Assembly (NCBI RefSeq): GCF_040954835.1
Contig: NC_090709.1
Span: forward strand, 39,221,475 to 39,285,474
Length of the DNA: 64,000 bases
Source of the DNA: Lepisosteus oculatus
Taxonomy: Eukaryota; Chordata; Actinopteri; Semionotiformes; Lepisosteidae
Reading direction: 5' to 3'
How positions within the stretch are numbered: position 1 is the stretch's first letter; every line of letters begins with the position of its first letter. A program made the translations under genes and the position numbers. Positions 26,301 to 54,629 of this stretch are shown one piece after another. Below the pieces are notes generated by a model. It was not told the origin of the DNA and did no database searches. It saw only the letters and a list, made by a program, of their open reading frames with translations.

Positions 26301-27959
26301 GGAGAGAGTGGGAGACAGGAGAGAGGAGAGAGATAGAGACAGGATAGAGAGATGACAGGAGAGGGGGACAGGACAGAGAGGAGACAGAGAGGAGAGAGAC
26401 AGGACTCACTCCCTGACTGTCTCTTTTTCTCTGACTGTCTCCCTGTCTCCCTCTCTCTCCCTGCGTCTCCCTTCCCACCTGTCTCTCTCTCTCTCTCCCC
26501 CTCCCTCCCTGTCTCTCTCTCTCTCCCCCTCTCTTCTACCCTGCCCTTCTCTCTCTCCCCCTCCCTCCCTGCCTGTCTCTCTCTCTCTCTCCCGCCCGTC
26601 TCCCTGTCTCTCTCTCAGGTACGTCAAGACGACAGCCAACGCCACAGTGGACCACCTGTCCAAGTACCTGGCCCTGCGCATCGCGCTGGAGGAGAGACAG
26701 GCGGACAGGCAGGCGGGGGGCGAGGGGGGCGAGGGGGGCGCCGGCGCGGCCAGCCTGCAGGACGTCAGCGAGAAGCAGTACACCATCTACATCACCACCA
26801 CAGCGGGGCAGTTCACCGTGAGTGTCCCCCCCTCCTGTCCTCTCCTCTCCCCCCCTCCTGTCCTCTCTCCCTCTCTCCTGTCCCCTCCTTTCCCCTCTCC
26901 TGTCCCCTCCTTTCCCCTCTCCTGTCCCCTCTCCCCCTCTCCTGTCCTCTCTCCCCCTCTCCTGTCCTCTCTCCCCCCCTCCTGTCCTCTCTCCCTCTCT
27001 CCTGTCCTCTCTCCCTCTCTCCTGTCCCCTCCTTTCCCCTCTCCTGTCCTCTCTCCCCCTCTCCTGTCCTCTCCCCCTCTCCTGTCCTCTCTCCCTCTCC
27101 TGTCCCCTCCTTTCCCCTCTCCTGTCCCCTCCTTTCCCCTCTCCTGTCCTCTCTCCCCCTCTCCTGTCCTCTCTCCCTCTTCTGTCCTCTCTCCCCCTCT
27201 CCTGTCCTCTCCCCCTCTCCTGTCCTCTCCTTTCCCCTCTCCTGTCCTCTCTCCCCCTCTCCTGTCCTCTCCTTTCCCCTCTCCTGTCCTCTCTCCCCCT
27301 CTCCTGTCCTCTCCCCCCCTCCTGTCCTCTCTCCCTGTCCTGTCTCCTCCTGTTCTATCTCTCACTCTGACAGTGAGACAGGTTCTCTCACTCTCTGACG
27401 GTGAGACAGGTTCTCTCTCTGACAGACACTCAATGGCTCTCTCTCTCTGACAGTGAGACAGGTCCTCTCTCTCTCTCTGACAGTGAGGCAGGTCCTCTCC
27501 CCCTCTCCTGTCCTCTCTCCCTCTCCTGTCCCCTCCTTTCCCCTCTCCTGTCCTCTCCCCCCCTCCTGTCCTCTCCTTTCCCCTCTCCTGTCCTCTCTCC
27601 CCCCCTCCTGTCCTCTCTCTCCCCCTCCTGTCCTCTCTCCCTGTCCTGTCTCCTCCTGTTCTATCTCTCACTCTGACAGTGAGGCAGGTTCTCTCACTCT
27701 CTGACGGTGAGACAGGTTCTCTCTCTGACAGACACTCAATGGCTCTCTCTCTCTCTGACAGTGAGGCAGGTCCTCTCTCTCTCTCGCTGACAGTGAGACA
27801 GGTCCTCTCTCTCTCTCGCTGACAGTGAGACAGGTCCTCTCTCTCTCTCTCTCACAGACGCTCAATGGCTCTCTCACTCTGGAGCTCGTGAACGAGAAGT
27901 TTTGGAAGGTCAGCAAACCCCTCGAGCTGTACTACGCCCCCACCAAGGAGCAGAAGTGA
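23365..27959 (+). CDS. ring1: RING1, E3 ubiquitin ligase of Polycomb repressive complex 1
   Basis: Catalytic PRC1 subunit that mono-ubiquitinates histone H2A in the nucleus. Exons: 23365-23442, 24016-24176, 24545-24760, 25519-25797, 26619-26817, 27858-27959. Phases fit and give 344 aa (human RING1 is about 406, RNF2 about 336). The start is [20 protein letters not shown], the RING1 N terminus. The C3HC4 RING has C48, C51, C64, H66, C69, C72, C84 and C87. A Ser/Asp-rich linker with a basic KRSRASDD follows. The RAWUL (Cbx/RYBP-binding) domain covers about residues 222-344 and ends [16 protein letters not shown]1 rather than RNF2 is favoured by the N terminus, the Gly/Ala-rich insert after LRIALEERQ, and linkage to RPS18/VPS52. 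The start exon has its own acceptor CTCCTCAG at 23350. Introns are packed with minisatellites, two of which copy exon ends. Confidence 0.95.
23476..24003 (+). repeat. 62-bp minisatellite, ~8 copies, RING1 intron 1
   Basis: Same unit and same gene-sense orientation as the ATF6B arrays. It ends in GTATGAACCCCTCTCTCTCT, which continues into the real acceptor CCTGTGCAG at 24015. Some copies have TGTCCTGG instead of TGTACTGG. Confidence 0.95.
24270..24540 (+). repeat. ~41-bp repeat, ~6 copies, RING1 intron 2
   Basis: Unit GTGATGATCCCTGTGGGTTA plus ACCCCTCTGTCTCTCTCCGG. Its second half (AACCCCTCTGTCTCTC) resembles the tail of the 62-bp family. It runs up to the acceptor CTCTCCAG at 24544. Confidence 0.88.
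24765..25465 (+). repeat. ACTGG-based array in RING1 intron 3
   Basis: Nested repeats of ACTGGACTGG, GGCACCGGCGCCGACTGG, CTGACACAGGTGCTGATCGG and GGCCCACAGCGG, with about 45-80-bp higher-order periods. Long antisense ORFs here are artefacts of the repeat. Confidence 0.9.
25730..26092 (+). repeat. ring1: RING1 exon 4 3' end and donor in three tandem copies
   Basis: The last ~65 nt of exon 4 (GAGATCGAGCTGGTGTTCTG ... CAGACCAG|GTACTGG) are repeated with their donor at about 25881-25945 and 26033-26086, separated by GAGAGACAGG purine repeats. The downstream copies lack any pyrimidine tract or acceptor. All three donors are identical. Reading on from any copy hits a TGA within seven codons (RYWREE-stop). 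Confidence 0.95.
25803..26617 (+). repeat. Purine-rich block switching to pyrimidine-rich block, RING1 intron 4
   Basis: 25803-26403 is GAGAGACAGGAGAGA-type purine-rich DNA, apart from the two exon copies. 26404-26617 is CTCCCTGTCTCTCTCT-type pyrimidine-rich DNA and ends in the acceptor of exon 5. The two halves are imperfect reverse complements and could fold as a hairpin in the pre-mRNA. Confidence 0.85.
26822..27850 (+). repeat. CT-rich arrays with partial copies of the exon 6 acceptor, RING1 intron 5
   Basis: CCTCTCCTGTCCTCTCTCCC repeats fill 26822-27360 and 27495-27660, with GACAGTGAGACAGGTTCTCT repeats between and after. Two stretches near 27423 and 27729 read CAGACACTCAATGGCTCTCT, which matches the exon 6 start (CAG|ACGCTCAATGGCTCTCT) and so places decoy acceptors inside the intron. 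Confidence 0.85.
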
Positions 27960-30435: not shown

Positions 30436-33287
<2,852 letters not shown>

Positions 33288-35570: not shown

Positions 35571-38500
35571 ATGGCGGCGGTGCTCCAGACTGCGGACGCC
35601 GGCCCGGCTGTCAGCGCCATGGCGTACCTGCAGGACGAGGTACGTGCAGCGCCTCCGCCCCGGGAGAGACACGGGGAGCGCCGGCGGGCGGCTCCTTGCT
35701 CACTCGTACGTGTGTGTGTTTGTATACACGTCCCTCTCCCCCATAGCCAGCTCCCAGCCTCTTACTGCTCACACAGGGGTCTCTCAGGGAGACAGGTGTG
35801 TGTTCCCCGTGTTACGGCTCTCCCTCTGTCTGTGTCTCCTCTCCCCTGTGTTAAGGCTCTCCCCCGGTCTGGCTCTCCTCTCCCTCTGTCTGTGTCTCCT
35901 CTCCCCTGTGTTAAGGCTCTCCCCCCGGTCTGGCTCTCCTCTCCCCCCGGTCTGTGTCTCCTCTTCCCTGTGTTATGGCTCTCCCCCCGGTCTGTGTCTC
36001 CTCTTCCCTGTGTTATGGCTCTCCCCCTGGTCTGTGTCTCCTCTTCCCTGTGTTTTGGCTCTCCCCCCGGTCTGGCTCTCCTCTCCCCCCGGTCTGTGTC
36101 TCCTCTCCCCTGTGTTACGGCTCTCCCCCTGGTCTGTGTCTCCTCTCCCCCTGGTCTGTGTCTCCTCTCCCCCATGTTACGGCTGTCCCTCGGTCTCTCT
36201 CCACAGATGAAGTCTGACCCAGATGACATTCCTGCTCTCAATCTGGGTGACCTGGACCTGACCTCTGACGAGTTCATCCTCGATGAAGTGGACAGTGAGT
36301 GTAGAGTTGTGTGAGAGTGTGGGCTTGTAGTGTGTGTGTGGTGTACACTTTAACACAGCGAGTGTAGAGTTGTGTGAGAGTGTGGGCTTGTAGTGTGTGT
36401 GGTGTACACTTTAACACAGCGAGTGTAGAGTTGTGTGAGAGTGTGGGCTTGTAGTGTGTGTGGTGTACACTTTAACACAGCGAGTGTAGAGTTGTGTGGG
36501 TTTGTAGTGTGTGTGTGTGGTGTACACTTTAACACAGCGAGTGTAGAGTTGTGTGAGAGTGTGGGTTTGTAGTGTGTGTGTGTGGTGTACACTTTAACAC
36601 AGCGAGTGTAGAGTTGTGTGAGAGTGTGGGCTTGTAGTGTGTGTGGTGTACACTTTAACACAGTGAGTGTAGAGTTGTGTGAGAGTGTGGGTTTGTAGTG
36701 TGTGTGGGGTGTACACTGTAACACAGCGAGTGTAGAGTTGTGTGAGAGTGTGGGTTTGTAGTGTGTGTGTGGTGTACACTGTAACACAGCGAGTGTAGAG
36801 TTGTGTGAGAGTGGGCTTGTAGTGTGTGTGGTGTACACTTTAACACAGTGAGTGTAGAGTTGTGTGAGAGTGTGGGCTTGTAGTGTGTGTGGGGTGTACA
36901 CTTTAACACAGTGAGTGTAGAGTTGTGTGAGTGGGTTTGTAGTGTGTGTGTGGTGTACACTTTAACACAGCGAGTGTAGAGTTGTGTGAGTGGGTTTGTA
37001 GTGTGTGTGTGGTGTACACTTTAACACAGCGAGTGTAGAGTTGTGTGAGTGGGTTTGTAGTGTGTGTGTGGTGTACACTTTAACACAGCGAGTGTAGAGT
37101 TGTGTGAGAGTGTGGGTTTGTAGTGTGTGTGGTGTACACTTTAACACAGCGAGTGTAGAGTTGTGTGAGTGGGTTTGTAGTGTGTGTGTGGTGTACACTT
37201 TAACACAGCGAGTGTAGAGTTGTGCGAGTGGGTTTGTAGTGTGTGTGTGGTGTACACTTTAACACAGCGAGTGTAGAGTTGTGTGAGAGTGTGGGTTTGT
37301 AGTGTGTGTGTGTGGTGTACACTTTAACACAGCGAGTGTAGAGTTGTGTGAGAGTGTGGGTTTGTAGTGTGTGTGTGTGTCTCTAACAGTTTCTGTGCTC
37401 ACAGTCCACATCCAGGCTAATCTGGAGGATGATCTGGTGAAGGAGGCTCTGAAAACGGTAAGACTGACCCCTGACCCTGACTGACCGCAGACTCACTGAC
37501 TGACAGACTGACCCTGACTGACCCCAGACTCACTGATCCCCTGACCCCGACTGACCCCAGACTCACTGACCAACAGACTGACCAACAGACTGACCAACAG
37601 ACTGACCAACAGACTGACCAACAGACTCACTGACCCCAGACTCACTGACCAACAGACTGACCCCAAACCCGAGACTCACTGATCCAAGACTCACTGACCC
37701 CCTGACCCTGACTGACCCCAGACTCACTGACCAACAGACTGACCCCAAACCCCAGACTCACTGACCCCAGACTCACTGACCCCAGACTGACCCTCTCTCC
37801 CAGGGTGTGGACCTGAGGCAGTATTCACAGACACACTGACCCCAGACTGACCCTCTCTCCCAGGGTGTGAACCTGAGGCGGTACTCACACACACACTGAC
37901 CCCAGACTGACCCTCTCTCCCAGGGTGTGGACCTGAGGCAGTACTCACACACACACTGACCCCAGACTGACCCTCTCTCCCAGGGTGTGGACCTGAGGCG
38001 GTACTCACACACACACTGACCCCAGACTGACCCTCTCTCCCAGGGTGTGGACCTGAGGCGGTACTCACACACACACTGACCCAGACTGACCCTCTCTCCC
38101 AGGGTGTGGACCTGAGGCGGTACTCACACACACACTGACCCCAGACTGACCCTCTCTCCCAGGGTGTGGACCTGAGGCAGTACTCCAAGCAGGTGGAGGC
38201 GGAGCTGCAGCAGATCGAGCAGGCCTCCATCAGGGACTGTATCCTCTCTGGGCCCTCCCCTCCTCGTGGGGGGCGGGGCCTCGGTCACAGCAGCACCACT
38301 GAGATCGCAGCTCAGCGCAGGGGGGGCGGGGCCTCGGTCACAGCAGCACCACTGAGATCGCAGCTTGGTGCAGGGGGGGCGGGGCCTCGGTCACAGCAGC
38401 ACCACTGAGATCGCAGCTCGGTGCAGGGGGGCGGGGCCTCAGGCATGGAGCCTTCACTGAGATCGCAGCTCAGCGCAGGGGGGGCGGGGCCTCGGTCACA

Positions 38501-41500
38501 GCAGCACCACTGAGATCGCAGCTCAGCGCAGGGGGGCGGGGCCTCAGTCACAGCAGCACCACTGAGATCGCAGCTCAGCGCAGGGGGGCGGGGCCTCGGT
38601 CACATCGCCGCCAATGAGATCGCAGCTCAACGCAGGGGGGGCGGGGCCTCGGTCACCTTATCTGGCCGATCCTTCAAGGATTCCCAGAGAGACCTGCTGG
38701 GCTGCTCGTTCCAGTCACCCGCTACTCTCTGCGTACAGAGGACTCTCCCTTCCTCTTCCCTGAAGGCCCCCCCACTGGTGTCGGTGTGGATCCTGACACA
38801 CACAAAGCCTGGTGCTGGCAGGGTCCGTACCGCTGGCCCGGTCCTGTCCGGTTCAGAGCTCTGTGCGTCTCTTTCGGGCGTGACGGCGCGGGTGTCCAGG
38901 CCTGTCCTCGTGTGTCTGTCCTTAAACCCCCCGTCCTCCAGACATCAAGGAGAGTCAGAACATCGCCTCCCTGCACAACCAGATCACGGCCTGCGACTCC
39001 ATCCTGGAGGTGAGAGGTCACAGCCTGTCAGTGTGTGTGTATGAACCCATCTCTCTCTCAGTGCAGTGTTCATGTACTGGAGTGTCCAGTCAGTGTGTGT
39101 GTATGAACCCCTCTCTCTCTCAGTGCAGTGTTCATGTACTGGAGTGTCCAGTCAGTGTGTGTGTATGAACCCCTCTCTCTCTCAGTGCAGTGTTCATGTA
39201 CTGGAGTGTCCAGTCAGGGTGTCTGTATGAACCCCTCTCTCTCTCAGTGCAGTGTTCATGTACTGGAGTGTCCAGTCAGTGTGTCTGTATGAACCCCTCT
39301 CTCTCTCAGTGCAGTGTTCATGTACTGGAGTGTCCAGTCAGTGTGTCTGTGTGAACCCCTCTCTCTCTCAGTGCAGTGTTCATGTACTGGAGTGTCCAGT
39401 CAGTGTGTGTGTATGAACCCCTCTCTCTCTCAGTGCAGTGTTCATGTACTGGAGTGTCCAGTCAGTGTGTCTGTATGAACCCCTCTCTCTCTCAGTGCAG
39501 TGTTCATGTACTGGAGTGTCCAGTCAGTGTGTGTGTATGAACCCCTCTCTCTCAGTGCAGTGTTCATGTACTGGAGTGTCCAGTCAGTGTGTGTGTATGA
39601 ACCCCTCTCTCTCTCAGTGCAGTGTTCATGTACTGGAGTGTCCAGTCAGTGTGTGTGTATGAACCCCTCTCTCTCTCAGTGCAGTGTTCATGTACTGGAG
39701 TGTCCAGTCAGTGTGTGTGTATGAACCCCTCTCTCTCCAGCGGATGGAGCAGATGCTCAGTAACTTCCAGAGTGACCTGTCCTGCATCAGCAGTGAGATC
39801 CAGTCCCTGCAGGAGCAGTCGGTGGCCATGAACGTCAAGCTGAAGAACCGCCAGTCCGTCCGCAGCGAGCTGAGCCAGCTGGTGGACGAGCTGGTGGTGC
39901 CCAGCAGCATGATCGCGTGAGGCTGACCGCGGCGCGTCCTGACCGCGGGGAGACTGACCGCGGGGAGACTGACCGGCAGGCGCGTCCTGACCGCGGGGAG
40001 ACTGACCGGCAGGCGCGTCCTGACCGCGGGGAGACTGACCGGCAGGCGCGTCCTGACCGCGGGGAGACTGACCGCGGGGAGTTTGGTCTGAGTCGTGTTC
40101 TGACCGCAGGGAGACTGACCGGCAGGCGGGTCCTGACCGCGGGGAGACTGACCGCAGGGAGACTGACTGCTGGGAGTGTGGTCTGAGTCGTGTCCTGACC
40201 GCAGGGAGACTGACCGCTGGGAGTGTGGTCTGAGTCGTGTCCTGACCGCAGGGAGACTGACCGGCAGGCGGGTCCTGACCGCGGGGAGACTGACCGCTGG
40301 GAGTGTGGTCTGAGTCGTGTCCTGACTGCTGGGAGTGTGGTCTGAGTCGTGTCCTGACCGCAGGGAGACTGACCGCTGGGAGTGTGGTCTGAGTCGTGTC
40401 CTGACCGCAGGGAGACTGACCGGCAGGCGGGTCCTGACCGCGGGGAGACTGACCGCAGGGAGACTGACTGCTGGGAGTGTGGTCTGAGTCGTGTCCTGAC
40501 TGCTGGGAGTGTGGTCTGAGTCGTGTCCTGACCGCGGGGAGACTGACCGCAGGGAGTGTGGTCTGAGTCGAGTCCTGACCGCGGGGAGACTGACCGCTGG
40601 GAGTGTGGTCTGAGTCGTGTCCTGACCGCAGGGAGACTGACCGCTGGGAGTGTGGTCTGAGTCGTGTCCTGACCGCAGGGAGACTGACCGGCAGGCGGGT
40701 CCTGACCGCGGGGAGACTGACCGCAGGGAGACTGACTGCTGGGAGTGTGGTCTGAGTCGTGTCCTGACTGCTGGGAGTGTGGTCTGAGTCGTGTCCTGAC
40801 CGCGGGGAGACTGACCGCAGGGAGTGTGGTCCGAGTCGCGTCCTGACCGCGGGGAGACTGACCGCTGGGAGTGTGGTCCGAGTCGAGTCCTGACCGCGGG
40901 GAGACTGACCGCTGGGAGTGTGGTCCGAGTCGCGTCCTGACCGCGGGGAGACTGACCGCTGGGAGTGTGGTCCGAGTCGCGTCCTGACCGCGGGGAGACT
41001 GACCGCTGGGAGTGTGGTCCGAGTCGCGTCCTGACCGCGGGGAGACTGACCGCTGGGAGTGTGGTCCGAGTCGTGTCCTGACCGCGGGGAGACTGACCGC
41101 GGGGAGTTTGGTCCGAGTCGCGTCCTGACCGCGTTGGTCGGTCGGTCGGTCAGTCCGGCGGTGAGTAACCCCCACTGTCCCCCCGCCGTCCCCCCCAGGA
41201 CCGTCCTGGACAGCGCAGTGACGGGGCAGGACTTCGTGGAGCAGCTGCAGGAGCTCAACAACAAGATCAACTACGCGAAGGAGCAGAGCTTCCGGGAGAC
41301 GCTGGCCTGCGCCGACATCCAGGACACGCTGGACAAGCTGCGGGTCAAGGTGGGGGCCGGGCGCGGGGGGCCGGGCGCGGGGGGGGCGGTCTCGGGGTCT
41401 CCGTCTCTGAGCGTCTGTCCCCTGCCCGCAGGCCGTCTCCAAGATCCGCGAGTTCATCCTGCAGAAGGTCTACTCCTTCCGCAAGCCCATGACCAACTAC

Positions 41501-44500
41501 CAGATCCCCCAGAACACCCTGCTCAAGTACAGGTACCGCCCCACCCCTCCGCCCGGGGGTCCCCCCCTGTCTGGTTCGCTCGCCGCGGGGGTTCGTCATC
41601 CGTCTCTGACTGTCCCACTCTCTCTCCTGTCTCTCTGACTCTCTCAATTTTTCAGTTCAGTCCAAGGTGCTTTATTAGCATGACCGATGGGTACAATCAG
41701 TGTTGCCACAGCAAATAAAATAATGAAATTAACACAAAATAAAAGTAAAATAAAATCTACAGACGTTTACATCAAAGACATGTCATAAAATATTGACATA
41801 TACTGTGGACAAAAGGAGACAGACTCACTGGTCCTCAGACTGGGACAGGAGATCACACACTGTATTATTATTATTGAGAGACAGGCTCACTGTCTGTTCC
41901 TCAGGCTGGAACAGGAGATCACACACTGGATTATTATTATTGAGAGACAGGCTCACTGTCTGTTCCTCAGGCTGGGACAGGAGATCACACACTGTATTAT
42001 TATTATTGAGAGACAGGCTCACTGTCTGTTCCTCAGGCTGGGACAGGAGCTCACACACTGGCCTGCCAGTTCAGTGGAGTTCCCTCCTCCTCCCTCTCCC
42101 AGTAGGATGGGGACCCGCTGGGATTCTGGCAGGGGCGGGGACTCTGGGACGAGAGGTCGGAGTTCAGGGAAGACTCGTCTCTCTGCAGGTTCTTCTACCA
42201 GTTCCTGCTGGCCAACGAGCGCCAGGTGGCGAAGGAGGTCAGGGACGAGTATGTGGACACCATGAGCAAGATGTACTACAGCTACTTCAAGTCCTACACC
42301 GGCAGGCTGATGAAAGTGCAGGTCTGAGGCCAGAGGGACACACGCGTCTGTCTGTCCACTGTCTGTCTGTCCGACTGCCACACCTGTCCACTGACTGTCT
42401 GTCTGTCCGACTGCCACACCTGTCCACTGACTGTCTGTCTGTCCGACTGCCACGCCTGTCCACTGACTGTCTGTCTGTCCGACTGCCACGCCTGTCCACT
42501 GACTGTCTGCCTGTCCGACTGCCACGCCTGTCCACTGACTGTCTGCCTGTCCGACTGCCACGCCTGTCCACTGACTGTCTGCCTGTCCGACTGCCACGCC
42601 TGTCCACTGACTGTCTGCCTGTCCGACTGCCACGCCTGTCCACTGACTGTCTGCCTGTCTGTCTGTCCCTCCATCTGCTGCACCTGTCCACTGACTGTCT
42701 GCCTGTCCACTGACTGTCTGCCTGTCCACTGACTGTCTGTCCGTCCGACCGCCCCGCCTGTCCACTGTCCGTCCGACCGCCCCGCCTGTCCACTGACTGT
42801 CTGCCTGTCTGACCGCCGTGCCTGTCCACTGACTGTCACGCCTGTCCACTGACTGTCCGGGCTCCAGCTGGCCGCAGTGTCCCCCCTGACCCCTGCCCCT
42901 CTCTGTCCCTCTGCCCCAGTACGAGGAGGTTGCTGATAAAGACGACCTCATGGGTGTGGAGGACACAGCCAAGAAAGATATCCTTCAGGGAGCAGGGCAG
43001 CGGGGCGCCGGGGGGCTGGGTGGCACTGTGGGGTTCGTGTGTGTAGTGAGGCTGTCTCAGAGAGGTTTGGTGTTATTGTGCAGTGAGATTGTGCAAGACT
43101 GGTGTGGTGGTGTGTGGTTTGTGTGTGTAGTGAGGCTGTCTCAGAGAGGTTTGGTGTTATTGTGCAGTGAGATTGTGCAAGACTGGTGTGGTGGTGTGTG
43201 GTTTGTGTGTGTAGTGAGGCTGTCTCAGAGAGGTTTGGTGTTATTGTGCAGTGAGATTGTGCAAGACTGGTGTGGTGGTGTGTGGTTTGCGTGTGTAGTG
43301 AGGTTGTCTCAGAGAGGTTTGTGTAATTGTGGGGTTCGTGTGTGTAGTGAGGTTGTCCAAGAGAGGTTTGGTGTTATTGTGTTATTGTGCAAGGTGTGGT
43401 GGTGTTGTGTGGTTCGTGTGTGAAGTGAGGTCGTGTAAGAGGGGTTTGTGTAATTGTGGGGTTCGTGTGTGTAGTGAGATTGTCCAAGAGAGGTTTGGTG
43501 TTATTGTGTTGTTAGTGTGTGTGCAGTGAGATTGTGCGAGAGTGGTGTGGCGGTGTTGTGTGGTTCGTGTGTGTAGTGAGGTTGTCCAAGAGAGGTTTGG
43601 TGTTATTGTGAGATTGTGCGAGAGTGGTGTGGCGGTGTTGTGTGTGCACCACAGTCGTTGTGCGGTTGTGTAACGGTAGTGTGGCCCCAGTGTTTCTCCT
43701 TGACCCAGTGAACGGTTCTTCTCCAAGCCCTCTCTGAAGAGCAGGAACACCATCTTCACGCTGGGCCAGAGGGGGACGATACTGAGTCCCACCGAGTTGG
43801 AGGGGCCCATCCTGGTACCCCACACTGCCCAGAGGAGTGACAACAGGGTAAATACAGCCACCCCCCTCTCAGTGCAGTGTTCATGTACTGGAGTGTCCAG
43901 TCAGTGTGTGTGTATGAACCCCTCTCTCTCTCAGTGCAGTGTTCATGTACTGGAGTGTCCAGTCAGTGTGTGTGTATGAACCCCTCTCTCTCTCAGTGCA
44001 GTGTTCATGTACTGGAGTGTCCAGTCAGTGTGTGTGTATGAACCCCTCTCTCTCTCAGTGCAGTGTTCATGTACTGGAGTGTCCAGTCAGTGTGTCTGTA
44101 TGAACCCCTCTCTCTCTCAGTGCAGTGTTCATGTACTGGAGTGTCCAGTCAGTGTGTCTGTGTGAACCCCTCTCTCTCTCTCAGTGCAGTGTTCATGTAC
44201 TGGAGTGTCCAGTCAGGGTGTCTGTATGAACCCCTCTCTCTCTCAGTGCAGTGTTCATGTACTGGAGTGTCCAGTCAGTGTGTGTGTATGAACCCCTCTC
44301 TCTCTCAGTGCAGTGTTCATGTACTGGAGTGTCCAGTCAGTGTGTCTGTATGAACCCCTCTCTCTCTCAGTGCAGTGTTCATGTACTGGAGTGTCCAGTC
44401 AGTGTGTGTGTATGAACCCCTCTCTCTCTCAGTGCAGTGTTCATGTACTGGAGTGTCCAGTCAGTGTGTGTGTATGAACCCCTCTCTCTCTCAGTGCAGT

Positions 44501-47500
44501 GTTCATGTACTGGAGTGTCCAGTCAGTGTGTCTGTATGAACCCCTCTCTCTCTCAGTGCAGTGTTCATGTACTGGAGTGTCCAGTCAGTGTGTCTGTATG
44601 AACCCCTCTCTCTCTCAGTGCAGTGTTCATGTACTGGAGTGTCCAGTCAGTGTGTCTGTATTAACCCCTCTCTCTCAGTGCAGTGTTAATGTACTGGAGT
44701 GTCCAGTCAGTGTGTGTGTATGAACCCCTCTCTCTCTCAGTGCAGTGTTCATGTACTGGAGTGTCCAGTCAGGGTGTGTATTGACTCCTCTCTCTCTGTG
44801 TCTCAGTACCCCTACGAGACTCTGTTCCGCAGTCAGCACTACGCTCTGCTGGACAACAGCTGCCGGGAGTTCCTCTTCCTGTGTGACTTCTTCATGGTGA
44901 CAGGAAGCTCCGCCCAGGACCTCTTCAACTGCATCATGGGAAAGACGCTCAGCATGTTCCTGGTAGGTGAGGAGGAGGAGGAGGAGGGTGGGGTTCGGGG
45001 CGCAGGGCCCCGAGCTCAGCCGCTGTGCGCCCCTCTGTCTCCCCGCAGAAACACATGTCCTCCTACGTGTCGGACTGCTACGACAGCATCGCCGTCTTCC
45101 TCTGCATCCACATCATCTTGAGGTTCCGGGCCATCACGGCCAAGAGGAACGTCCCGGCGCTGGACAAGTCAGTCTGTCCGCCTGCTGCTGCTGAGTCTCT
45201 CTTCAGACTCCCTGTGTTGCTGGTGCTGTGTTGCTCTGTGTTGCCCAGTGTTGATGGTGCTGTGCTGTCGCTCTGTGTTGCCCAGTGTTGATGGTGCTGT
45301 GCTGTCGCTCTGTGTTGATGGTGCGGTGTTGCTCTGTGTTGACTTGTTGCCCAGTGTTGATGGTGCGGTGTTGCTCTGTGTTGACTTGTTGCCCAGTGTT
45401 GATGGTGCGGTGTTGCTCTGTGTTGCCCAGTGTTGATGGTGTGGTGTTGCTCTGTGTTGCCCAGTGTTGATGGTGTGGTGTTGCTCTGTGTTGACTTGTT
45501 GCCCAGTGTTGATGGTGCAGTGTTGCTCTGTGTTGCCCAGTGTTGATGGTGCAGTGTTGCTCTGTGTTGCCCAGTGTTGATGGTGCAGTGTTGCTCTGTG
45601 TTGCCCAGTGTTGATGGTGCAGTGTTGCTCTGTGTTGCCCAGTGTTGATGGTGCAGTGTTGCTCTGTGTTGCCCAGTGTTGATGGTGCAGTGTTGCTCTG
45701 TGTTGCCCAGTGTTGATGGTGCAGTGTTGCTCTGTGTTGCCCAGTGTTGATGGTGCAGTGTTGCTCTGTGTTGCCCAGTGTTGATGGTGCGGTGTTGCTC
45801 TGTGTTGCCCAGTGTTGATGGTGCGGTGTTGCTCTGTGTTGCCCAGTGTTGATGGTGCGGTGTTGCTCTGTGTTGCCCAGTGTTGATGGTGCGGTGTTGC
45901 TCTGTGTTGACTTGTTGCCCAGTGTTGATGGTGCAGTGTTGCCCAGTGTTGACTTGTTGCCCAGTGTTGATGGTGCGGTGTTGCTCTGTGTTGCTGTAGG
46001 TACTGGGAGGCTGTGCTGGAGCTCTTGTGGCCCCGATTTGAGCTGATCCTGGAGATGAACATCCAGAGCATCAGGAACACTGACCCTCAGAGACTGGGGA
46101 TACTGGACACCAGACCACACTACGTCAGTACTGACCGGTGACACTCACTGACCCTCAGAGACTGGGAATACTGGACACCAGACCACACTACGTCAGTACT
46201 GACCGGTGACACTCACTGACCCTCAGAGACTGGGGATACTGGACACCAGACCACACTACGTCAGTACTGACCGGTGACACTCACTGACCCTCAGAGACTG
46301 GGGATACTGGACACCAGACTACACTACGTCAGTACTGACCGGTGACACTCACTGACCCTCAGAGACTGGGGATACTGGACACCAGACCACACTACGTCAG
46401 TACTGACCGGTGACACTGACCCTCAGAGACTGGGGATACTGGACACCAGACCACACTCCGTCAGTACTGACCCGTGACTCAGACTGACCCTCAGAGACTG
46501 GGGATACTGGACACCAGACCACACTCCGTCAGTACTGACCGGTGACTCACACTGACCCTCAGAGACTGGGAATACTGGACACCAGACCACACTCGGTCAG
46601 TACTGACCGGTGACACTCACTGACCCTCAGAGACTGGGAATACTGGACACCAGACCACACTACGTCAGTACTGACCGGTGACACTCACTGACCCTCAGAG
46701 ACTGGGAATACTGGACACCAGACCACACTCGGTCAGTACTGACCGGTGACACTCACTGACCCTCAGAGACTGGGGATACTGGACACCAGACCACACTACG
46801 TCAGTACTGACCGGTGACACTGACCCTCAGAGACTGGGGATACTGGACACCAGACCACACTCCGTCAGTACTGACCCGTGACTCAGACTGACCCTCAGAG
46901 ACTGGGGATACTAGACACCAGACCACACTCCGTCAGTACTGACCGGTGACACTGACCCTCAGAGACTGGGGATACTGGACACCAGACCACACTCCGTCAG
47001 TACTGACCCGTGACTCAGACTGACCCTCAGAGACTGGGGATACTGGACACCAGACCACACTCCGTCAGTACTGACCGGTGACTCACACTGACCCTCAGAG
47101 ACTGGGAATACTGGACACCAGACCACACTCGGTCAGTACTGACCGGTGACACTCACTGACCCTCAGAGACTGGGGATACTGGACACCAGACCACACTACG
47201 TCAGTACTGACCGGTGACACACACTGACCCTCAGAGACTGGGGATACTGGACACCAGACCACACTACGTCAGTACTGACCGGTGACACTCACTGACCCTC
47301 AGAGACTGGGGATACTGGACACCAGACCACACTCCGTCAGTACTGACCGGTGACACTCACTGACCCTCAGAGACTGGGAATACTGGACACCAGACCACAC
47401 TACGTCAGTACTGACCGGTGACACACACTGACCCTCAGAGACTGGGAATACTGGACACCAGACCACACTACGTCAGTACTGACCGGTGACTCAGACTGAC

Positions 47501-50500
47501 CCTCAGAGACTGGGGATACTGGACACCAGACCACACTCCGTCAGTACTGACCGGTGACACACGCTGACCCTCAGAGACTGGGGATACTGGACACCAGACC
47601 ACACTACGTCAGTACTGACCGGTGACACACGCTGACCCTCAGAGACTGGGAATACTGGACACCAGACCACACTCCGTCAGTACTGACCGGTGACTCACAC
47701 TGACCCTCAGTGACTGGGGATACTGGACACCAGACCACACTCGGTCAGTACTGACCGGTGACACACACTGACCCTCAGACACCAGCCCACACTCCGTCAG
47801 TACTGACCGGTGACACACTGACCCTCAGACACCAGCCCACACTCGGTCAGTACTGACGCGCTGCCCGTGTCGGTGTCTGTCCTCAGATCACCCGGCGGTA
47901 CGCGGAGTTCTCCTCCGCGATCGTCAGCATCAACCAGACCTTCCCCAACGAGAAGACCCACACCCTGCTGGGCCAGCTGCAGGTACGCACGAGGAGGAGG
48001 AGGAGGAGGCAGCCCTCCGGCGCTGCAGGGGCGCGGGCCCCAGTCCGCACGGTAACGCGCTCTCGGTCCTCCTTGGCAGGTGGAAGTGGAGAACTTCGTC
48101 CTGAAGATGGCGGCCGAGTTTCCCTCCAGGAAGGACCAGCTCATCTTCCTCATCAACAACTACGACATGATGCTGAGCGTGCTCATGGTGAGACAGAGAC
48201 ACGTGGTCTGGACACTGGGTGTCTCTGGGGTCTGTGTGAGGGTCTGGACTCCTCTCTCTGTGTGAGGGGTGCCTCTGGGGTCTGTGTGAGGGTCTGGACT
48301 CCTCTCTCTGTGTGAGGGGTGTCTCTGGGGTCTGTGTGAGGGTCTGGACTCCTCTCTCTGTGTGAGGAGTGCCTCTGGGGTCTGTGTGAGGGTCTGGGCT
48401 CCTCTCTCTGTGTGAGGAGTGTCTCTGGGGTCTGTGTGAGGGTCTGGACTCCTCTCTGTGTGAGGGGTGTCTCTGGGGTCTGTGTGAGGGTCTGGACTCC
48501 TCTCTCTGTGTGAGGAGTGCCTCTGGGGTCTGTGTGAGGGTCTGGGCTCCTCTCTCTGTGTGAGGAGTGTCTCTGGGGTCTGTGTGAGGGTCTGGACTCC
48601 TCTCTCTGTGTGAGGGGTGTCTCTGGGGTCTGTGTGAGGGTCTGGACTCCTCTCTCTGTGTGAGGAGTGTCTCTGGGGTCTGTGTGAGGGTCTGGACTCC
48701 TCTCTCTGTGTGAGGAGTGTCTCTGGGGTCTGTGTGAGGGTCTGGACTCCTCTCTCTGTGTGAGGAGTGTCTCTGGGGTCTGTGTGAGGGTCTGGACTCC
48801 TCTCTCTGTGTGTGAGGAGTGTCTCTGGGGTCTGTGTGAGGGTCTGGACTGCTCTCTCTGTGTGAGGAGTGCCTCTGGGGTCTGTGTGAGGGTCTGGACT
48901 GCTCTCTCTGTGTGAGGAGTGTCTCTGGGGTCTGTGTGAGGGTCTGGACTCCTCTCTCTGTGTGAGGAGTGTCTCTGGGGTCTGTGTGAGGGTCTGGACT
49001 CCTCTCTCTGTGTGAGGAGTGTCTCTGGGGTCTGTGTGAGGGTCTGGACTCCTCTCTCTGTGTGAGGAGTGTCTCTGGGGTCTGTGTGAGGGTCTGGACT
49101 CCTCTCTCTGTGTGAGGAGTGTCTCTGGGGTCTGTGTGAGGGTCTGGACTCCTCTCTCTGTGTGAGGAGTGCCTCTGGGGTCTGTGTGAGGGTCTGGACT
49201 CCTCTCTCTGTGTGAGGGGTGTCTCTGGGGTCTGTGTGAGGGTCTGGACTCCTCTCTCTGTGTGAGGGGTGTCTCTGGGGTCTGTGTGAGGGTCTGGACT
49301 CCTCTCTCTGTGTGAGGGGTGTCTCTGGGGTCTGTGTGAGGGTCTGGACTCCTCTCTCTGTGTGAGGGGTGTCTCTGGGGTCTGTGTGAGGGTCTGGACT
49401 CCTCTCTCTGTGTGAGGGGTGTCTCTGGGGTCTGTGTGAGGGTCTGGACTCCTCTCTCTGTGTGAGGGGTGTCTCTGGGGTCTGTGTGAGGGTCTGGGCT
49501 CCTCTCTCTGTGTGAGGGGTGTCTCTGGGGTCTGTGTGAGGGTCTGGACTCCTCTCTCTGTGTGAGGGGTGCCTCTGGGGTCTGTGTGAGGGTCTGGGCT
49601 CCTCTCTCTGTGTGAGGAGTGTCTCTGGGGTCTGTGTGAGGGTCTGGGCTCCTCTCTCTGTGTGAGGGGTGTCTCTGGGGTCTGTGTGAGGGTCTGGGCT
49701 CCTCTCTCTGTGTGAGGGGTGTCTCTGGGGTCTGTGTGAGGGTCTGGGCTCCTCTCTCTGTGTGAGGGGTGTCTCTGGGGTCTGTGTGAGGGTCTGGACT
49801 CCTCTCTCTGTGTGTGAGGGGTGTCTCTGGGGTCTGTGTGAGGGTCTGGACTCCTCTCTCTGTGTGAGGAGTGTCTCTGGGGTCTGTGTGAGGGTCTGGA
49901 CTCCTCTCTCTGTGTGAGGAGTGTCTCTGGGGTCTGTGTGAGGGTCTGGACTCCTCTCTCTGTGTGAGGGGTGTCTCTGGGGTCTGTGTGAGGGTCTGGA
50001 CTCCTCTCTCTGTGTGAGGGGTGTCTCTGGGGTCTGTGTGAGGGTCTGGACTCCTCTCTCTGTGTGAGGGGTGTCTCTGGGGTCTGTGTGAGGGTCTGGA
50101 CTCCTCTCTCTGTGTGAGGGGTGTCTCTGGGGTCTGTGTGAGGGTCTGGACTCCTCTCTCTGTGTGAGGGGCGTCTCTGGGGTCTGTGTGAGGGTCTGGA
50201 CTCCTCTCTCTGTGTGAGGGGCGTCTCTGGGGTCTGTGTGAGGGTCTGGACTCCTCTCTCTGTGTGAGGGGCGTCTCTGGGGTCTGTGTGAGGGTCTGGA
50301 CTCCTCTCTCTGTGTGAGGGGCGTCTCTGGGCTCTGTGTGAGGGTCTGGACTCCTCTCTCTGTGTGAGGGGCGTCTCTGGGCTCTGTGTGAGGGTCTGGA
50401 CTCCTCTCTCTGTGTGAGGGGCGTCTCTGGGGTCTGTGTGAGGGTCTGGACTGCTCTCTCTGTGTGAGGGGCGTCTCTGGGGTCTGTGTGAGGGTCTGGA

Positions 50501-53500
50501 CTCCTCTCTCTGTGTGAGGGGTGTCTCTGGGGTCTGTGTGAGGGTCTGGACTCCTCTCTCTGTGTGAGGGGTGTCTCTGGGGTCTGTGTGAGGGTCTGGA
50601 CTCCTCTCTCTGTGTGAGGGGTGTCTCTGGGGTCTGTGTGAGGGTCTGGACTCCTCTCTCTGTGTGAGGGGTGTCTCTGGGGTCTGTGTGAGGGTCTGGA
50701 CTCCTCTCTCTGTGTGAGGAGTGTCTCTGGGGTCTGTGTGAGGGTCTGGACTCCTCTCTCTGTGTGAGGAGTGTCTCTGGGGTCTGTGTGAGGGTCTGGA
50801 CTGCTCTCTCTGTGTGAGGGGTGTCTCTGGGCTCTGTGTGAGGGTCTGGACTCCTCTCTCTGTGTGAGGGGTGTCTCTGGGGTCTGTGTGAGGGTCTGGA
50901 CTCCTCTCTCTGTGTGAGGGGTGTCTCTGGGCTCTGTGTGAGGGTCTGGACTCCTCTCTCTGTGTGTGTGGAGTGTCTCTGGGGTCTGTGTGAGGGTCTG
51001 GACTCCTCTCTCTGTGTGTGGAGTGTCTCTGGGGTCTGTGTGAGGGTCTGGACTCCTCTCTCTGTGTGAGGAGTGTCTCTGGGGTCTGTGTGAGGGTCTG
51101 GACTCCTCTCTCTGTGTGAGGAGTGTCTCTGGGGTCTGTGTGAGGGTCTGGACTCCTCTCTCTGTGTGAGGAGTGTCTCTGGGCTCTGTGTGAGGGTCTG
51201 GACTCCTCTCTCTGTGTGAGGGGCGTCTCTGGGGTCTGTGTGAGGGTCTGGACTCCTCTCTCTGTGTGAGGGGCGTCTCTGGGCTCTGTGTGAGGGGCGT
51301 CTCTGGGCTCTGTGTGAGGGTCTGGACTCCTCTCTCTGTGTGAGGGGCGTCTCTGGGCTCTGTGTGAGGGTCTGGACTCCTCTCTCTGTGTGAGGGGCGT
51401 CTCTGGGCTCTGTGTGAGGGTCTGGACTGCTCTCTCTGTGTGAGGGGCGTCTCTGGGGTCTGTGTGAGGGTCTGGACTCCTCTCTCTGTGTGAGGGGTGT
51501 CTCTGGGGTCTGTGTGAGGGTCTGGACTCCTCTCTCTGTGTGAGGGGTGTCTCTGGGGTCTGTGTGAGGGTCTGGACTCCTCTCTCTGTGTGAGGGGTGT
51601 CTCTGGGGTCTGTGTGAGGGTCTGGACTCCTCTCTCTGTGTGAGGGGTGTCTCTGGGGTCTGTGTGAGGGTCTGGACTCCTCTCTCTGTGTGAGGGGTGT
51701 CTCTGGGGTCTGTGTGAGGGTCTGGACTCCTCTCTCTGTGTGAGGGGTGTCTCTGGGCTCTGTGTGAGGGTCTGGACTCCTCTCTCTGTGTGAGGGGTGT
51801 CTCTGGGGTCTGTGTGAGGGTCTGGACTCCTCTCTCTGTGTGAGGAGTGTCTCTGGGGTCTGTGTGAGGGTCTGGACTGCTCTCTCTGTGTGAGGGGTGT
51901 CTCTGGGCTCTGTGTGAGGGTCTGGACTCCTCTCTCTGTGTGAGGAGTGTCTCTGGGGTCTGTGTGAGGGTCTGGACTCCTCTCTCTGTGTGAGGAGTGT
52001 CTCTGGGGTCTGTGTGAGGGTCTGGACTCCTCTCTCTGTGTGAGGAGTGTCTCTGGGGTCTGTGTGAGGGTCTGGACTGCTCTCTCTGTGTGAGGGGTGT
52101 CTCTGGGCTCTGTGTGAGGGTCTGGACTCCTCTCTCTGTGTGTGTGGAGCGTCTCTGGGGTCTGTGTGAGGGTCTGGACTCCTCTCTCTGTGTGAGGAGC
52201 GTCTCTGGGGTCTGTGTGAGGGTCTGGACTCCTCTCTCTGTGTGAGGAGCGTCTCTGGGGTCTGTGTGAGGGTCTGGACTCCTCTCTCTGTGTGAGGAGT
52301 GTCTCTGGGGTCTGTGTGAGGGTCTGGACTCCTCTCTCTGTGTGAGGAGTGTCTCTGGGGTCTGTGTGAGGGTCTGGACTCCTCTCTCTGTGTGAGGAGT
52401 GTCTCTGGGGTCTGTGTGAGGGTCTGGACTCCTCTCTCTGTGTGAGGAGTGTCTCTGGGGTCTGTGTGAGGGTCTGGACTCCTCTCTCTGTGTGAGGAGT
52501 GTCTCTGGGGTCTGTGTGAGGGTCTGGACTCCTCTCTCTGTGTGAGGAGGGTCTCTGGGGTCGGTGTGAGGGTCTGGACTCCTCTCTCTGTGTGAGGGGT
52601 GCCTCTGGGGTCTGTGTGAGGGTCTGTTTGAACTTTCTCTCCCTGCCAGGAAAGGGCATCGGATGACAGCAAGGAGGTGGAGGGTTTCCAGCAGCTCCTC
52701 CATGCCAGAACTCAGGTGGGTCAGCAGTGGACTCAGGGCTGTGCAGTGAGGATCCCGCTGGGCTTACCGTAGATCACAAGGTCTCATGGAGATCCCCTCT
52801 CTGGCTCCCAGGAGTTCATCGAGGAGATCCTCTCCCCACCCTTCGGCGGGATGATCGCGTTCGTGAAGGAGAGCGAGGCTCTGATGGAGAAGGGTCAGCT
52901 GGACCGGCTGAAGAACGATGAAGGTGAGAGAGGAGGAGGAGGAGGAGGTAATTCCCCTCCCAGTGCAGTGTTAGTGTCCTGGAGTGTCCAGTCTCTCTCT
53001 CTCTCTCTCAGTCAGGGTCACTCAGCTGGTCAGAGGGTTCTCCAGCACCTGGAAGCAGTCGGTGGAGAGCCTCAGTCAGGACGTCATGAGGTCCTTCACC
53101 AACTTCAAGAACGGAACCGGGATCATTCAGGTACAGACTGAGCCTCCTGCCTCTCTCCAGTGTGAGTGTGTGAGTGTCCTGTCTCTCTCACTCTCAGGTG
53201 TGTCCTGTCTCTTGCTCGCTCTCTCTCTTGCTGTCTCAGGTGTGTCCCGTCTCTTGCTCGCTCTCTCTCTTGCTGTCTCAGGTGTGTCCCGTCTCTTGCT
53301 CGCTCTCTCTCTTGCTGTCTCAGGTGTGTCCCGTCTCTTGCTCGCTCTCTTGCTGTCTCAGGTGTGTCCCGTCTCTTGCTCGCTCTCTCTCTTGCTGTCT
53401 CAGGTGTGTCCCGTCTCTTGCTCGCTCTCTCTTGCTGTCTCAGGTGTGTCCCGTCTCTTGCTCGCTCTCTCTTGCTGTCTCAGGTGTGTCCTGTCTCTTG

Positions 53501-54441
53501 CTCGCTCTCTCTCTTGCTGTCTCAGGTGTGTCCCGTCTCTTGCTCGCTCTCTCTCTTGCTGTCTCAGGTGTGTCCCGTCTCTTGCTCGCTGTCTCTCGCT
53601 GTCTCAGGTGTGTCCTGTCTCTTGCTCGCTCTCTCTCTTGCCGTCTCAGGTGTGTCCTATCTCTCGCTGTCAGTCTCTCTCTCTCTTGCTGTCTCAGGTG
53701 TGTCCTGTCTCTCGCTGTCAGTCTCTCTCTCTTGCCGTCTCAGGTGTGTCCTGTCTCTTGCCGTCTCAGGTGTGTCCTGTCTCTCTCGCTGTCTCAGGTG
53801 TGTCCTGTCTCTCTCGCTGTCTCAGGTGTGTCCTGTCTCTCTCGCTGTCTCAGGTGTGTCCTGTCTCTTGCTCGCTCTCTTTCTCTTGCGGTCTCAGGTG
53901 TGTCCTGTCTCTTGCTCGCTCTCTCTCTTGCAGTCTCAGGTGTGTCCTGTCTCTTGCTCGCTCTCTCTCTTGCTGTCTCAGGTGTGTCCTGTCTCTTGCT
54001 CGCTCTCTCTCTTGCTGTCTCAGGTGTGTCCTGTCTCTTGCTCGCTCTCTCTCTTGCTGTCTCAGGTGTGTCCTGTCTCTTGCTCGCTCTCTCTCTTGCT
54101 GTCTCAGGTGTGTCCCGTCTCTTGCTCGCTCTCTCTCTTGCTGTCTCAGGTGTGTCCCGTCTCTTGCTCGCTCTCTCTCTTGCTGTCTCAGGTGTGTCCC
54201 GTCTCTTGCTCGCTCTCTCTCTTGCTGTCTCAGGTGTGTCCCGTCTCTTGCTCGCTCTCTCTCTTGCAGTCTCAGGTGTGTCCTGTCTCTCTCTTGCAGT
54301 CTCAGGTGTGTCCTGTCTCTCTCTTGCAGTCTCAGGTGTGTCCTGTCTCTCTCTCTCTCTTGCTGTCTCAGGTGTGTCCTGTCTCTCTCTCTCTCTCGCT
54401 GTCTCAGGTGTGTCCTGTCTCTCTCGCTGTCTCAGGTGTGT

Positions 54442-54478
<37 letters not shown>

Positions 54479-54629
54479 CCAGGGTGCGCTGACCCAGCTG
54501 ATCCAGTACTACCACGGCTTCCACAAGGCCCTGTCCCAGCCGGCGTTCCGGACCCTGGCGGTGCGCTCCGAGCTCATCAACCTGCACCACCTCATGGTGG
54601 AGGTGAAGAAGCACAAGCCCAACTTCTGA
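35571..54629 (+). CDS. vps52: VPS52, GARP/EARP tethering complex subunit
   Basis: GARP/EARP subunit that tethers endosome-derived vesicles at the trans-Golgi network/recycling endosomes with VPS51, VPS53 and VPS50/54. Exons: 35571-35639, 36207-36294, 37405-37457, 38163-38238, 38942-39009, 39741-39916, 41199-41349, 41432-41532, 42189-42321, 42920-42977, 43714-43847, 44807-44962, 45049-45167, 46000-46123, 47887-47982, 48080-48187, 52650-52715, 52812-52923, 53012-53130, 54483-54629. All phases agree and give 717 aa (human 723). Landmarks are [12 protein letters not shown], coiled-coil [54 protein letters not shown] and [17 protein letters not shown] 35559 is in frame four codons upstream and is an alternative start; 35571 is preferred for its MAA-type beginning and GTGATGG context. 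Intron 10 is AT-AC. Most introns are minisatellites. Confidence 0.96.
35790..36190 (+). repeat. ~38-bp repeat, VPS52 intron 1
   Basis: Unit GTCTGTGTCTCCTCTCCCCT then GTGTTACGGCTCTCCCCC. It leads into the acceptor CTCTCCACAG at 36206. Confidence 0.88.
36291..37385 (+). repeat. vps52: ~60-bp array derived from the exon 2 donor, VPS52 intron 2
   Basis: The real donor GACA|GTGAGTGTAGAGTTGTGT is copied about 17 times in a ~60-bp unit ending GGTGTACACTTTAACACA. In about 14 copies the decoy donor is GCGAGT; three (near 36660, 36848 and 36908) keep GTGAGT. Confidence 0.93.
37485..38162 (+). repeat. vps52: Arrays in VPS52 intron 3, including six copies of the exon 4 acceptor
   Basis: 37485-37800 has irregular CTGACCCCAGACTCACTGACC repeats. 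From 37795 a 60-bp unit carries CTCTCTCCCAG|GGTGTGGACCTGAGGCGGTACTC, the acceptor and first ~24 nt of exon 4. Six decoys precede the real site at 38163. Decoy reading frames meet TGA after CACACACAC. Confidence 0.95.
38265..38660 (+). repeat. ~53-bp array with tandem GC boxes, VPS52 intron 4
   Basis: Unit CACTGAGATCGCAGCTCAGC followed by GCAGGGGGGGCGGGGCCTCG, about 7 copies. Each holds a GGGGCGGGGC GC box (Sp/KLF-type). Confidence 0.9.
38661..38941 (+). other. Single-copy remainder of VPS52 intron 4
   Basis: Unique sequence ending in the acceptor CGTCCTCCAG at 38941. No further element is recognised. Confidence 0.4.
39026..39738 (+). repeat. 62-bp minisatellite, ~11 copies, VPS52 intron 5
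   Basis: Gene-sense orientation. The last unit GTATGAACCCCTCTCTCTCC-AG is itself the acceptor of exon 6 (starts 39741). Confidence 0.95.
39920..41145 (+). repeat. GC-rich CTGACCGCGGGGAGA array, VPS52 intron 6
   Basis: Mosaic of CTGACCGCGGGGAGACTGAC, CGGCAGGCGGGTC and CGCTGGGAGTGTGGTCTGAG units, with higher-order blocks of about 190-260 bp. CpG-rich, and stop-free in two minus-strand frames. Confidence 0.9.
41645..42064 (+). repeat. Fish-type interspersed repeat plus 66-bp tandem repeat, VPS52 intron 8
   Basis: 41645-41765 (CAGTCCAAGGTGCTTTATTA, GTGTTGCCACAGCAAATAAA) resembles a dispersed element common in ray-finned fish. 41826-42062 is a 66-bp unit (ATTGAGAGACAGGCTCACTG) in about 3.6 copies. 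Confidence 0.65.
42340..42860 (+). repeat. ~36-bp CTGTCTGTCCGACTGCC array, VPS52 intron 9
   Basis: Unit CTGTCCACTGACTGTCTGTC then TGTCCGACTGCCACGC, about 14 copies with variants. The donor of the preceding exon is the unusual CAG|GTCTGA. Confidence 0.9.
42978..43713 (+). other. vps52: AT-AC (U12-type) intron of VPS52 with an internal ~76-bp repeat
   Basis: The donor is AAGAAAG|ATATCCTTCAG, the U12 AT-AC consensus ATATCCTT. The branch site is TTTCTCCTTGAC (TCCTTGAC at 43697-43704), and the 3' end is GTGAAC|GGTTCTTCTCC, 10 nt beyond the branch A. Only this AT-AC pairing restores the reading DTAKK-G-FFSKPSL. The interior (43030-43640) is a tandem repeat with GTTTGTGTGTGTAGTGAGGC and GGTTTGGTGTTATTGTGCAG. 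Confidence 0.93.
43865..44785 (+). repeat. 62-bp minisatellite, ~15 copies, VPS52 intron 11
   Basis: Gene-sense orientation. It begins just after the donor (GTAAATACAGCC) and continues into the acceptor CTCTCTGTGTCTCAG ending at 44806. Confidence 0.95.
45185..45990 (+). repeat. 34-bp array ending in the acceptor of VPS52 exon 14
   Basis: Unit TGTTGATGGTGCAGTGTTGC then TCTGTGTTGCCCAG, about 22 copies. The real acceptor GTTGCTCTGTGTTGCTGTAG (ends 45999) is a variant of the unit end, so each copy has an acceptor-like CCCAG. Confidence 0.93.
46078..47870 (+). repeat. vps52: ~66-bp array copying the 3' end of VPS52 exon 14 and its donor 26 times
   Basis: The last ~45 nt of exon 14 (CTGACCCTCAGAGACTGGGG ... 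CAGACCACACTAC) and its donor GTCAGTACTGACCGGTG are repeated across the whole intron. Copies vary at GGGGAT/GGGAAT and at CACTAC/CACTCC/CACTCG before the donor, but GTCAGTACTGAC is essentially invariant. The real site is the first copy (exon end 46123, followed by ITRRYAEF in the next exon). The last two units are shortened (about 47770-47860). Confidence 0.97.
48195..52628 (+). repeat. 50-bp minisatellite, ~88 copies, VPS52 intron 16
   Basis: Unit GTGTGAGGGTCTGGACTCCT then CTCTCTGTGTGAGGAGTGTC, identical to the ATF6B array at 0.44-0.71 kb and in the same gene sense. Positional variants are GAGGGGTGT/GAGGAGTGT/GAGGGGCGT, GGGGTC/GGGCTC and ACTCCT/ACTGCT/GCTCCT. All three minus-strand frames stay open for about 4.5 kb because no unit phase carries a stop. 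Confidence 0.98.
52960..53011 (+). repeat. Solitary copy of the 62-bp family as the 3' half of VPS52 intron 18
   Basis: The 88-bp intron 18 contains CAGTGCAGTGTTAGTGTCCTGGAGTGTCCAGT followed directly by the CT tract and CAG acceptor. One unamplified unit therefore forms the branch/acceptor half of the intron. Confidence 0.85.
53140..54478 (+). repeat. ~42-bp array with CTCAG|GTGTGT junctions, VPS52 intron 19
   Basis: Unit TCTCAGGTGTGTCCTGTCTC then TTGCTCGCTCTCTCTCTTGC, about 32 copies, some shortened. Each unit juxtaposes a pyrimidine tract plus CAG with GTGTGT. Confidence 0.93.

Follow-up and report, generated by a model that had tools for sequence, protein, structure and literature searches.

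An exon-end-plus-donor minisatellite with 26 extra copies at VPS52 exon 14 of Lepisosteus oculatus, set in a regional minisatellite domain

Minisatellites spanning an exon–intron boundary have been described in amphioxus as "mirages", in Adh3, the globins BflGb6/BflGb9 and troponin C, with similar repeats in PGBD5, and they are said to leave splicing undisturbed (PMC3087553, PMC3902484). Internal tandem repeats, some of them at exon–intron boundaries, are also reported from human segmental duplications (PMC2812944), and intron gain by tandem genomic duplication likewise duplicates exon sequence together with splice signals (PMC4974935, PMC2891723). Here we present an analysis of a 64,000-nucleotide (nt) stretch of Lepisosteus oculatus DNA (plus strand of contig C14, 39221475–39285474), hereafter the window, in which the intron following exon 14 of VPS52 carries a minisatellite whose unit combines the end of that exon with its splice donor. 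This exon-end-plus-donor minisatellite is a genuine structure and fits the amphioxus mirage. Positions are those of the window, and features lie on the plus strand unless stated otherwise.

VPS52 and RING1 were mapped by tblastn with human protein sequences. The 20 exons of VPS52 (35571–54629) join into an intact frame of 717 amino acids with Pfam matches to Vps52_C (2.5e-132) and Vps52_CC (3.1e-69), and the protein alignment assigns number 14 to the 124-nt exon at 46000–46123, which ends in phase 0. The identification of VPS52 exon 14 in an earlier note on this DNA is supported by the frame, the Pfam matches and the alignment alike. Joining the first donor of exon 14 to the acceptor at 47886, and thereby to exon 15 (47887–47982, placed by protein alignment and joined frame), yields the conserved, intact VPS52 frame.

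The authentic donor of exon 14, TAC/GTCAGTACTGAC (46124–46135; the slash marks the splice junction), presents after the junction a 12-mer that is a perfect 12-bp palindrome and that is found in 27 identical copies between 46124 and 47857, the authentic one and 26 downstream, the last of which starts at 47846. Each of the 26 units of the array (46124–47845) opens with this palindrome, and the spacing of the copies is 68 nt in 21 units, 64 nt in three, and 52 and 50 nt in the final two. Tandem Repeats Finder reports the same array as 46077–47779 (period 68, 25.2 copies) together with 47726–47857 (period 50). The exon-derived part of each unit stems from the last 45 nt of exon 14; it shows 0–3 differences from the exon end in 24 of the 26 units, is shorter in the truncated final two, and is variable at just 7 of its 45 columns. 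The proposal of the earlier note that a minisatellite repeats the exon end and its donor 26 times is upheld by these counts. Downstream of the array, the 27th palindrome and the authentic 3' splice site occupy 41 nt (47846–47886), and because no more than this distance lies between the start of the last palindrome and the acceptor AG, the TACTGAC within it may be the branch point of intron 14. A whole-genome DNA search with 46000–46200 returned 25 matches, every one at the VPS52 locus, in a search that skipped very common words and so leaves uniqueness unproven.

The correspondence with mirages extends to several features. The repeat crosses the exon–intron boundary, the units carry splice signals (27 of 27 donors identical), and there are signs of concerted evolution with a diverged edge, namely 17 unit types among the 26 units, a block of unit types D-E-F that is present twice, and the truncation of the last two units. 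The globin BflGb6 of amphioxus has 6 and 3 units in two haplotypes, while the VPS52 array has 26 extra units, none with a damaged donor; the present case further differs from the amphioxus mirages in being in a vertebrate, in affecting two adjoining genes and in lying within a regional minisatellite domain. The human repeats of PMC2812944 are, like the VPS52 array, minisatellite expansions in vertebrate genes; they consist on average of 30-bp units repeated four times in recent paralogues, some of them inferred to make novel introns, whereas in VPS52, a conserved gene, the extra units number 26 and the frame is unchanged. In contrast to the intron gain of PMC4974935 and PMC2891723, the VPS52 copies sit within an intron and no intron is newly made: exons 14 and 15 join across a single intron with no protein gap relative to the human sequence, and no new intron within former exon sequence was found there. 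Intron gain by tandem duplication is therefore not the class to which this array belongs, since its copies sit inside an existing intron. In the literature searched, from whose coverage subscription journals are mostly absent, no vertebrate boundary-spanning array of such size was recognised.

As to its origin, a tandem duplication would by chance have spanned the exon-14/intron-14 boundary, and the array would then have grown to 26 extra units through unequal exchange or slippage; the introns of this region are in general inflated by minisatellites. The 7-nt sequence ACTGACC in exon 14 (46079–46085) is a direct repeat of intronic 46130–46136, 51 nt apart, and is a possible seed of the first duplication. 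Later block duplications are shown by the unit order, with its repeated D-E-F. Divergence rising away from the exon was considered and rejected, as the 24 full units show no significant trend with distance (Spearman 0.26, P=0.22).

Boundary-spanning copies are not confined to exon 14. A scan of 62 exon edges (30 donors and 32 acceptors; 49 edges in RING1 and VPS52, 13 in an ATF6B-like gene), each searched for in the window as 20 bases of exon joined to 8 of intron and allowing up to 20% mismatch, identified four copied edges: the VPS52 exon-14 donor (26 copies), the RING1 exon-5 donor (2), the VPS52 exon-4 acceptor (6) and the RING1 exon-7 acceptor (2). None of the 13 scanned edges of the ATF6B-like gene was copied. 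The six extra copies of the exon-4 acceptor (37804–38162) have a unit of about 60 nt that includes at least 20 nt of the exon start, and the authentic copy comes last, at 38163; at RING1 exon 5, the exon end and donor (CAG/GTACTG) have two further copies in a 141-nt unit (25798–26175), with the authentic copy first. Two further copies of the RING1 exon-7 acceptor, each including 20 nt of exon sequence (27418–27857; at 27418 and 27724, 3/28 mismatches each), are CT-rich and make up the weakest of the four cases. In all four the coding copy is the exon-adjacent one, because the extra copies lie in the intron. For control, 59 of 62 chaperonin (PF00118) matches, each with its 40-nt flanks and together spread over 11 loci of about 9–10 kb (one match each on C17, C1 and C12 left out), were searched per locus with tiled 28-mers, and copied exon parts were found in 0 of these 59 exon cores, in a search space of 10 kb as against 64 kb and with approximate exon limits. 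A separate 59-nt array extends from the VPS52 exon-2 donor (36292–37380); the donor core is matched exactly 18 times there, 14 times with GC instead of GT and four times, the authentic one included, with GT. The corresponding change is seen in 0 of the 27 exon-14 copies.

Splice-site strength was scored with a donor matrix built from 20 GT donors of RING1 and VPS52 other than the exon-14 donor; those of VPS52 exons 4, 8 and 10 were left out, and both this and the acceptor matrix are small and local. The 20 matrix donors score 5.3 to 12.4 (leave-one-out 3.0 to 11.9), and the authentic exon-14 donor, at 1.47, is the lowest of the 21 donors scored. Among the 26 later copies, the 11 preceded by TAC score equally, the five preceded by TCG score higher (1.86) and the ten preceded by TCC score lower (-0.86). 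Fourteen nucleotides inside intron 14 lies a second GT, CCG/GTGACA (46138–46143; the 9-mer is present in 19 of the 26 units), which scores 5.61 and whose use would shift the frame. Since later copies match or exceed the authentic donor and the GT at 46138 scores well above it, strength does not pick out the correct exon-14 donor, and the local matrix in fact favours a wrong one. Among the 24 acceptors scored, those of VPS52 exons 14 and 15 rank at the bottom (2.3 and 3.1).

The earlier note had also contrasted an invariant donor with a drifting exon part. The donor core is invariant indeed, but the contrast with the exon part is not significant (0 of 12 variable columns versus 7 of 45, Fisher P=0.33; column shuffling over the 21 units of 68 nt, P=0.094), and these figures do not support reading the invariance as a mark of selection.

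The consequences of using the copies can be read from the frames. Reading past the first exon-14 donor gives VSTDR followed by a stop, the TGA being the sixth intron codon, and exon 14 extended to the next donors would measure 192, 260, 328 nt and more. RING1 exon 5, when extended, reads RYWREE and then a stop; from each of the six decoy acceptors of VPS52 exon 4 the reading is GVDLR- or GVNLR-like and runs into a stop, and both decoys of RING1 exon 7 meet a stop.

Taken together, we favour, with a probability of about 0.65, the reading that the exon-14 array is a mirage-type minisatellite whose copies are tolerated since exon 14 is defined as a unit by its exon-proximal donor. The exon would be recognised as a whole, the donor nearest its acceptor pairing with it across the exon to give the 124-nt exon, and transcripts in which the exon is extended to a later donor would carry the in-frame TGA and be expected targets of nonsense-mediated decay. 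In a designed library, two equal donors resulted in predominant use of the first, two equal acceptors showed no preference by order, and at unequal strengths the stronger site dominated (PMC6783452). Human data and minigenes indicate that long flanking introns favour exon-proximal sites and short ones intron-proximal sites, the switch lying at an intron length of 200–250 nt, with the stronger site dominant in 86% of 5' events; weak duplicated donors caused larger exons to be skipped, the upstream site still winning in small and medium constructs (PMC9225289). The introns flanking exon 14 measure 832 and 1763 nt and those flanking exon 4 measure 705 and 703 nt, and because such long introns belong to the exon-defined class, the exon-proximal site would be expected at both exons. 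The earlier note called the choice of the first donor an open question; for two equal donors and long introns a published answer exists, which may extend to the 27 weak donors here. This account of donor choice by exon proximity draws on the structure, the frames, the intron lengths and the published rules, and should be taken as an interpretation of these.

Several points weigh against it. The stronger GT at 46138 lowers confidence, as the case for its non-use comes solely from the frame, and no other of the 21 donors scored is as weak as the authentic one; both PMC6783452 and PMC9225289 state that of two unequal sites the stronger usually wins. The skipping of larger exons with weak duplicated donors in the latter study is a further difficulty, and as acceptor order was irrelevant in the former, the account fits the exon-4 array less well. 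In-frame inserts of 33 nt would likewise preserve the frame, and the ancestral intron lengths are deduced from what remains of the introns outside the arrays.

The 33-nt inserts belong to the first of four competing explanations, in which these segments are spliced in as in-frame repeats, giving VPS52 isoforms of variable length. The earlier note had described a CCCTCAG followed by an in-frame 33 nt and a donor in each unit, and such segments of the right length are present in 24 of the 26 units; 23 are open, one opens with a stop, and the last two units have 17 nt. By letters, then, 23 of 26 units have an acceptor, an open segment of a multiple of three nucleotides and a donor, and 12 of the 26 acceptor-like sites score 3.4–3.9, at or above the true exon-15 acceptor, with the other 14 at -3.0 to 1.7, below it. 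The 23 open segments have three peptide readings, in 10, 12 and 1 units, and of the 24 segments 12 do not read PHY, one reads RLHY and one opens with the stop. In 22 units the donor lies 35 nt from the end of that unit's CCCTCAG, in three 31 nt and in one 33 nt, and an intron of 31–35 nt is too short for vertebrates, so that inclusion would require the skipping of units. The inclusion suggested in the earlier note thus stays conceivable and is weakened by this requirement, and we consider it very improbable. Folding of 45900–48000, a span outside which the other boundary arrays lie, was modelled at three pairing spans with reference to another explanation, that the palindromic copies pair as 12-bp stems and mask the decoys while the first donor stays freer. 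A fraction of 0.87–0.88 of palindrome bases was predicted to pair with another palindrome, and the authentic donor was predicted to be unpaired at 0.25–0.33 as compared with a decoy mean of 0.18–0.19; three broken-palindrome controls, however, were predicted to hide the donors about equally (decoy means 0.21–0.25, authentic 0.25–0.41), and masking by RNA structure is accordingly regarded as unlikely.

Alternatively, the decoys could be useful, with 26 U1-binding sites raising local U1 and aiding a very weak authentic donor, and the array kept by selection. The rank of the authentic donor as weakest of those scored and the intactness of all 27 donors beside the GC-for-GT changes of the exon-2 array speak in favour of this; the invariance, however, is not significant relative to neighbouring columns, and copies of recent common ancestry may simply have inherited their intactness, which leaves such usefulness distinctly unlikely. 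An artefact of assembly, with the array collapsed, expanded or misjoined, would be in keeping with the error-proneness of long arrays and with the knowledge of this one from a single assembly. Against it stand the 17 distinct unit types, the indel variants and the truncated end, the genome search without a match elsewhere, and unrelated arrays of similar size in neighbouring introns, and it is hardly credible as an explanation.

The surroundings of the array are themselves rich in minisatellites. Arrays make up 65% of the window when a period of at least 10 and 3 or more copies are required; with at least 2.5 copies they account for 89% of intron sequence in RING1 and VPS52. The three genes have 30 mapped introns: the 23 with lengths of 250 nt or more all contain arrays and keep a median of 52 nt outside them, whereas six of the seven shorter than 250 nt are without arrays. 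Exon bases fall inside arrays at 161 of 4209 positions against 2780 under random placement. Arrays were found in 18 of 20 samples of 2 kb from 38.72–39.79 Mb of C14 (one sample being half N) and in 9 of 20 samples of 1 kb farther along the contig, all of these between 35 and 41.5 Mb. By comparison, one of 20 samples of 2 kb from 12 contigs (three samples on C14, at 10, 25 and 50 Mb) held an array, covering 2.4% of its length, and of the 13 regions retrieved for PF00118 matches, 2 held arrays, covering 1.2% and 9.4%. As far as sampled, this is a patchy, megabase-scale minisatellite domain (C14, about 35–41.5 Mb) and not a genome-wide property. A subtelomeric position of the window was dropped as a description, since it lies at 39.2 Mb of the 60.0-Mb contig; the contigs seen range from 78.9 Mb (C1) to 12.0 Mb (C30), which we guess to represent large and small chromosomes, as in gars.

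Of the other genes in the window, RING1 has six coding exons joining into 344 amino acids with a Pfam match to RAWUL (3.5e-21), and a third gene at 191–11106 is tentatively taken to be ATF6B; its seven exons were placed by eye without one continuous joined frame, and its edges are less certain. The human counterparts of these three genes lie in the major histocompatibility complex region. A minisatellite family with 62-nt units was observed in several introns (1063–7402, 9632–10715, 23474–23992, 39027–39722 and 43866–44757), and also reversed on the minus strand at 30524–30827; the block at 1063–7402 is mostly a 33-nt relative according to Tandem Repeats Finder. In RING1 intron 2 and in VPS52 introns 5 and 11 the family comes to an end no more than 10 nt from the exon, its CT-rich tail there being the acceptor tract. 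Its 16-mers were found in 7 of 40 C14 samples, one with just two; a genome-wide search with the 62-bp minisatellite gave no match, in a search that passes over very common words and so does not bear on its copy number. An intron of the ATF6B-like gene holds a 121-nt unit in 11.3 copies that are 98% alike (7853–9221), with no exon origin seen by eye. Between this gene and RING1 lies an array of about 190 copies of a 39-nt unit (12574–20009), whose open frames of up to 1857 codons are accounted for by 39 being divisible by 3 and do not indicate a gene. In VPS52, introns 4 (38239–38941) and 10 (42978–43713) look U12-type by eye, with putative U12-type 5' ends GTATCCTC and ATATCCTT respectively, intron 10 ending in AC.

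The length rule described above permits a further and more tentative reading. The array-free introns of VPS52 measure 86–97 nt, and without its array intron 14 would, judging from the 41 nt between the start of its last donor and the acceptor, be well under 250 nt; the two-copy stage of the array would for this reason have favoured the downstream donor. Because that stage would fall in the downstream-donor class, it can be conjectured that the arrays inflated compact introns of RING1, VPS52 and the ATF6B-like gene past 200–250 nt and so rendered intron-side copies harmless, an array in this way building its own protection with no limit to its growth. We regard this as doubtful at present. If true, two-copy arrays in short introns would be selected against, and boundary copies would be confined to long introns.

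Overall, the exon-14 array represents a known, rare kind of repeat and is unusual in its copy number and regional context. Returning to the favoured reading, in which the exon-proximal donor defines exon 14, its value lies in what the locus offers: published competition experiments pit two sites against each other (PMC6783452, PMC9225289), whereas VPS52 presents 27 identical donors at one exon and 7 near-identical acceptors at another. If transcription order were the sole guide, the wrong acceptors would be expected at exon 4; exon definition predicts the right site at both VPS52 exons. VPS52 of Lepisosteus oculatus is in this sense a natural test of splice-site choice, in which the exon-proximity rule is testable by ordinary RNA sequencing.

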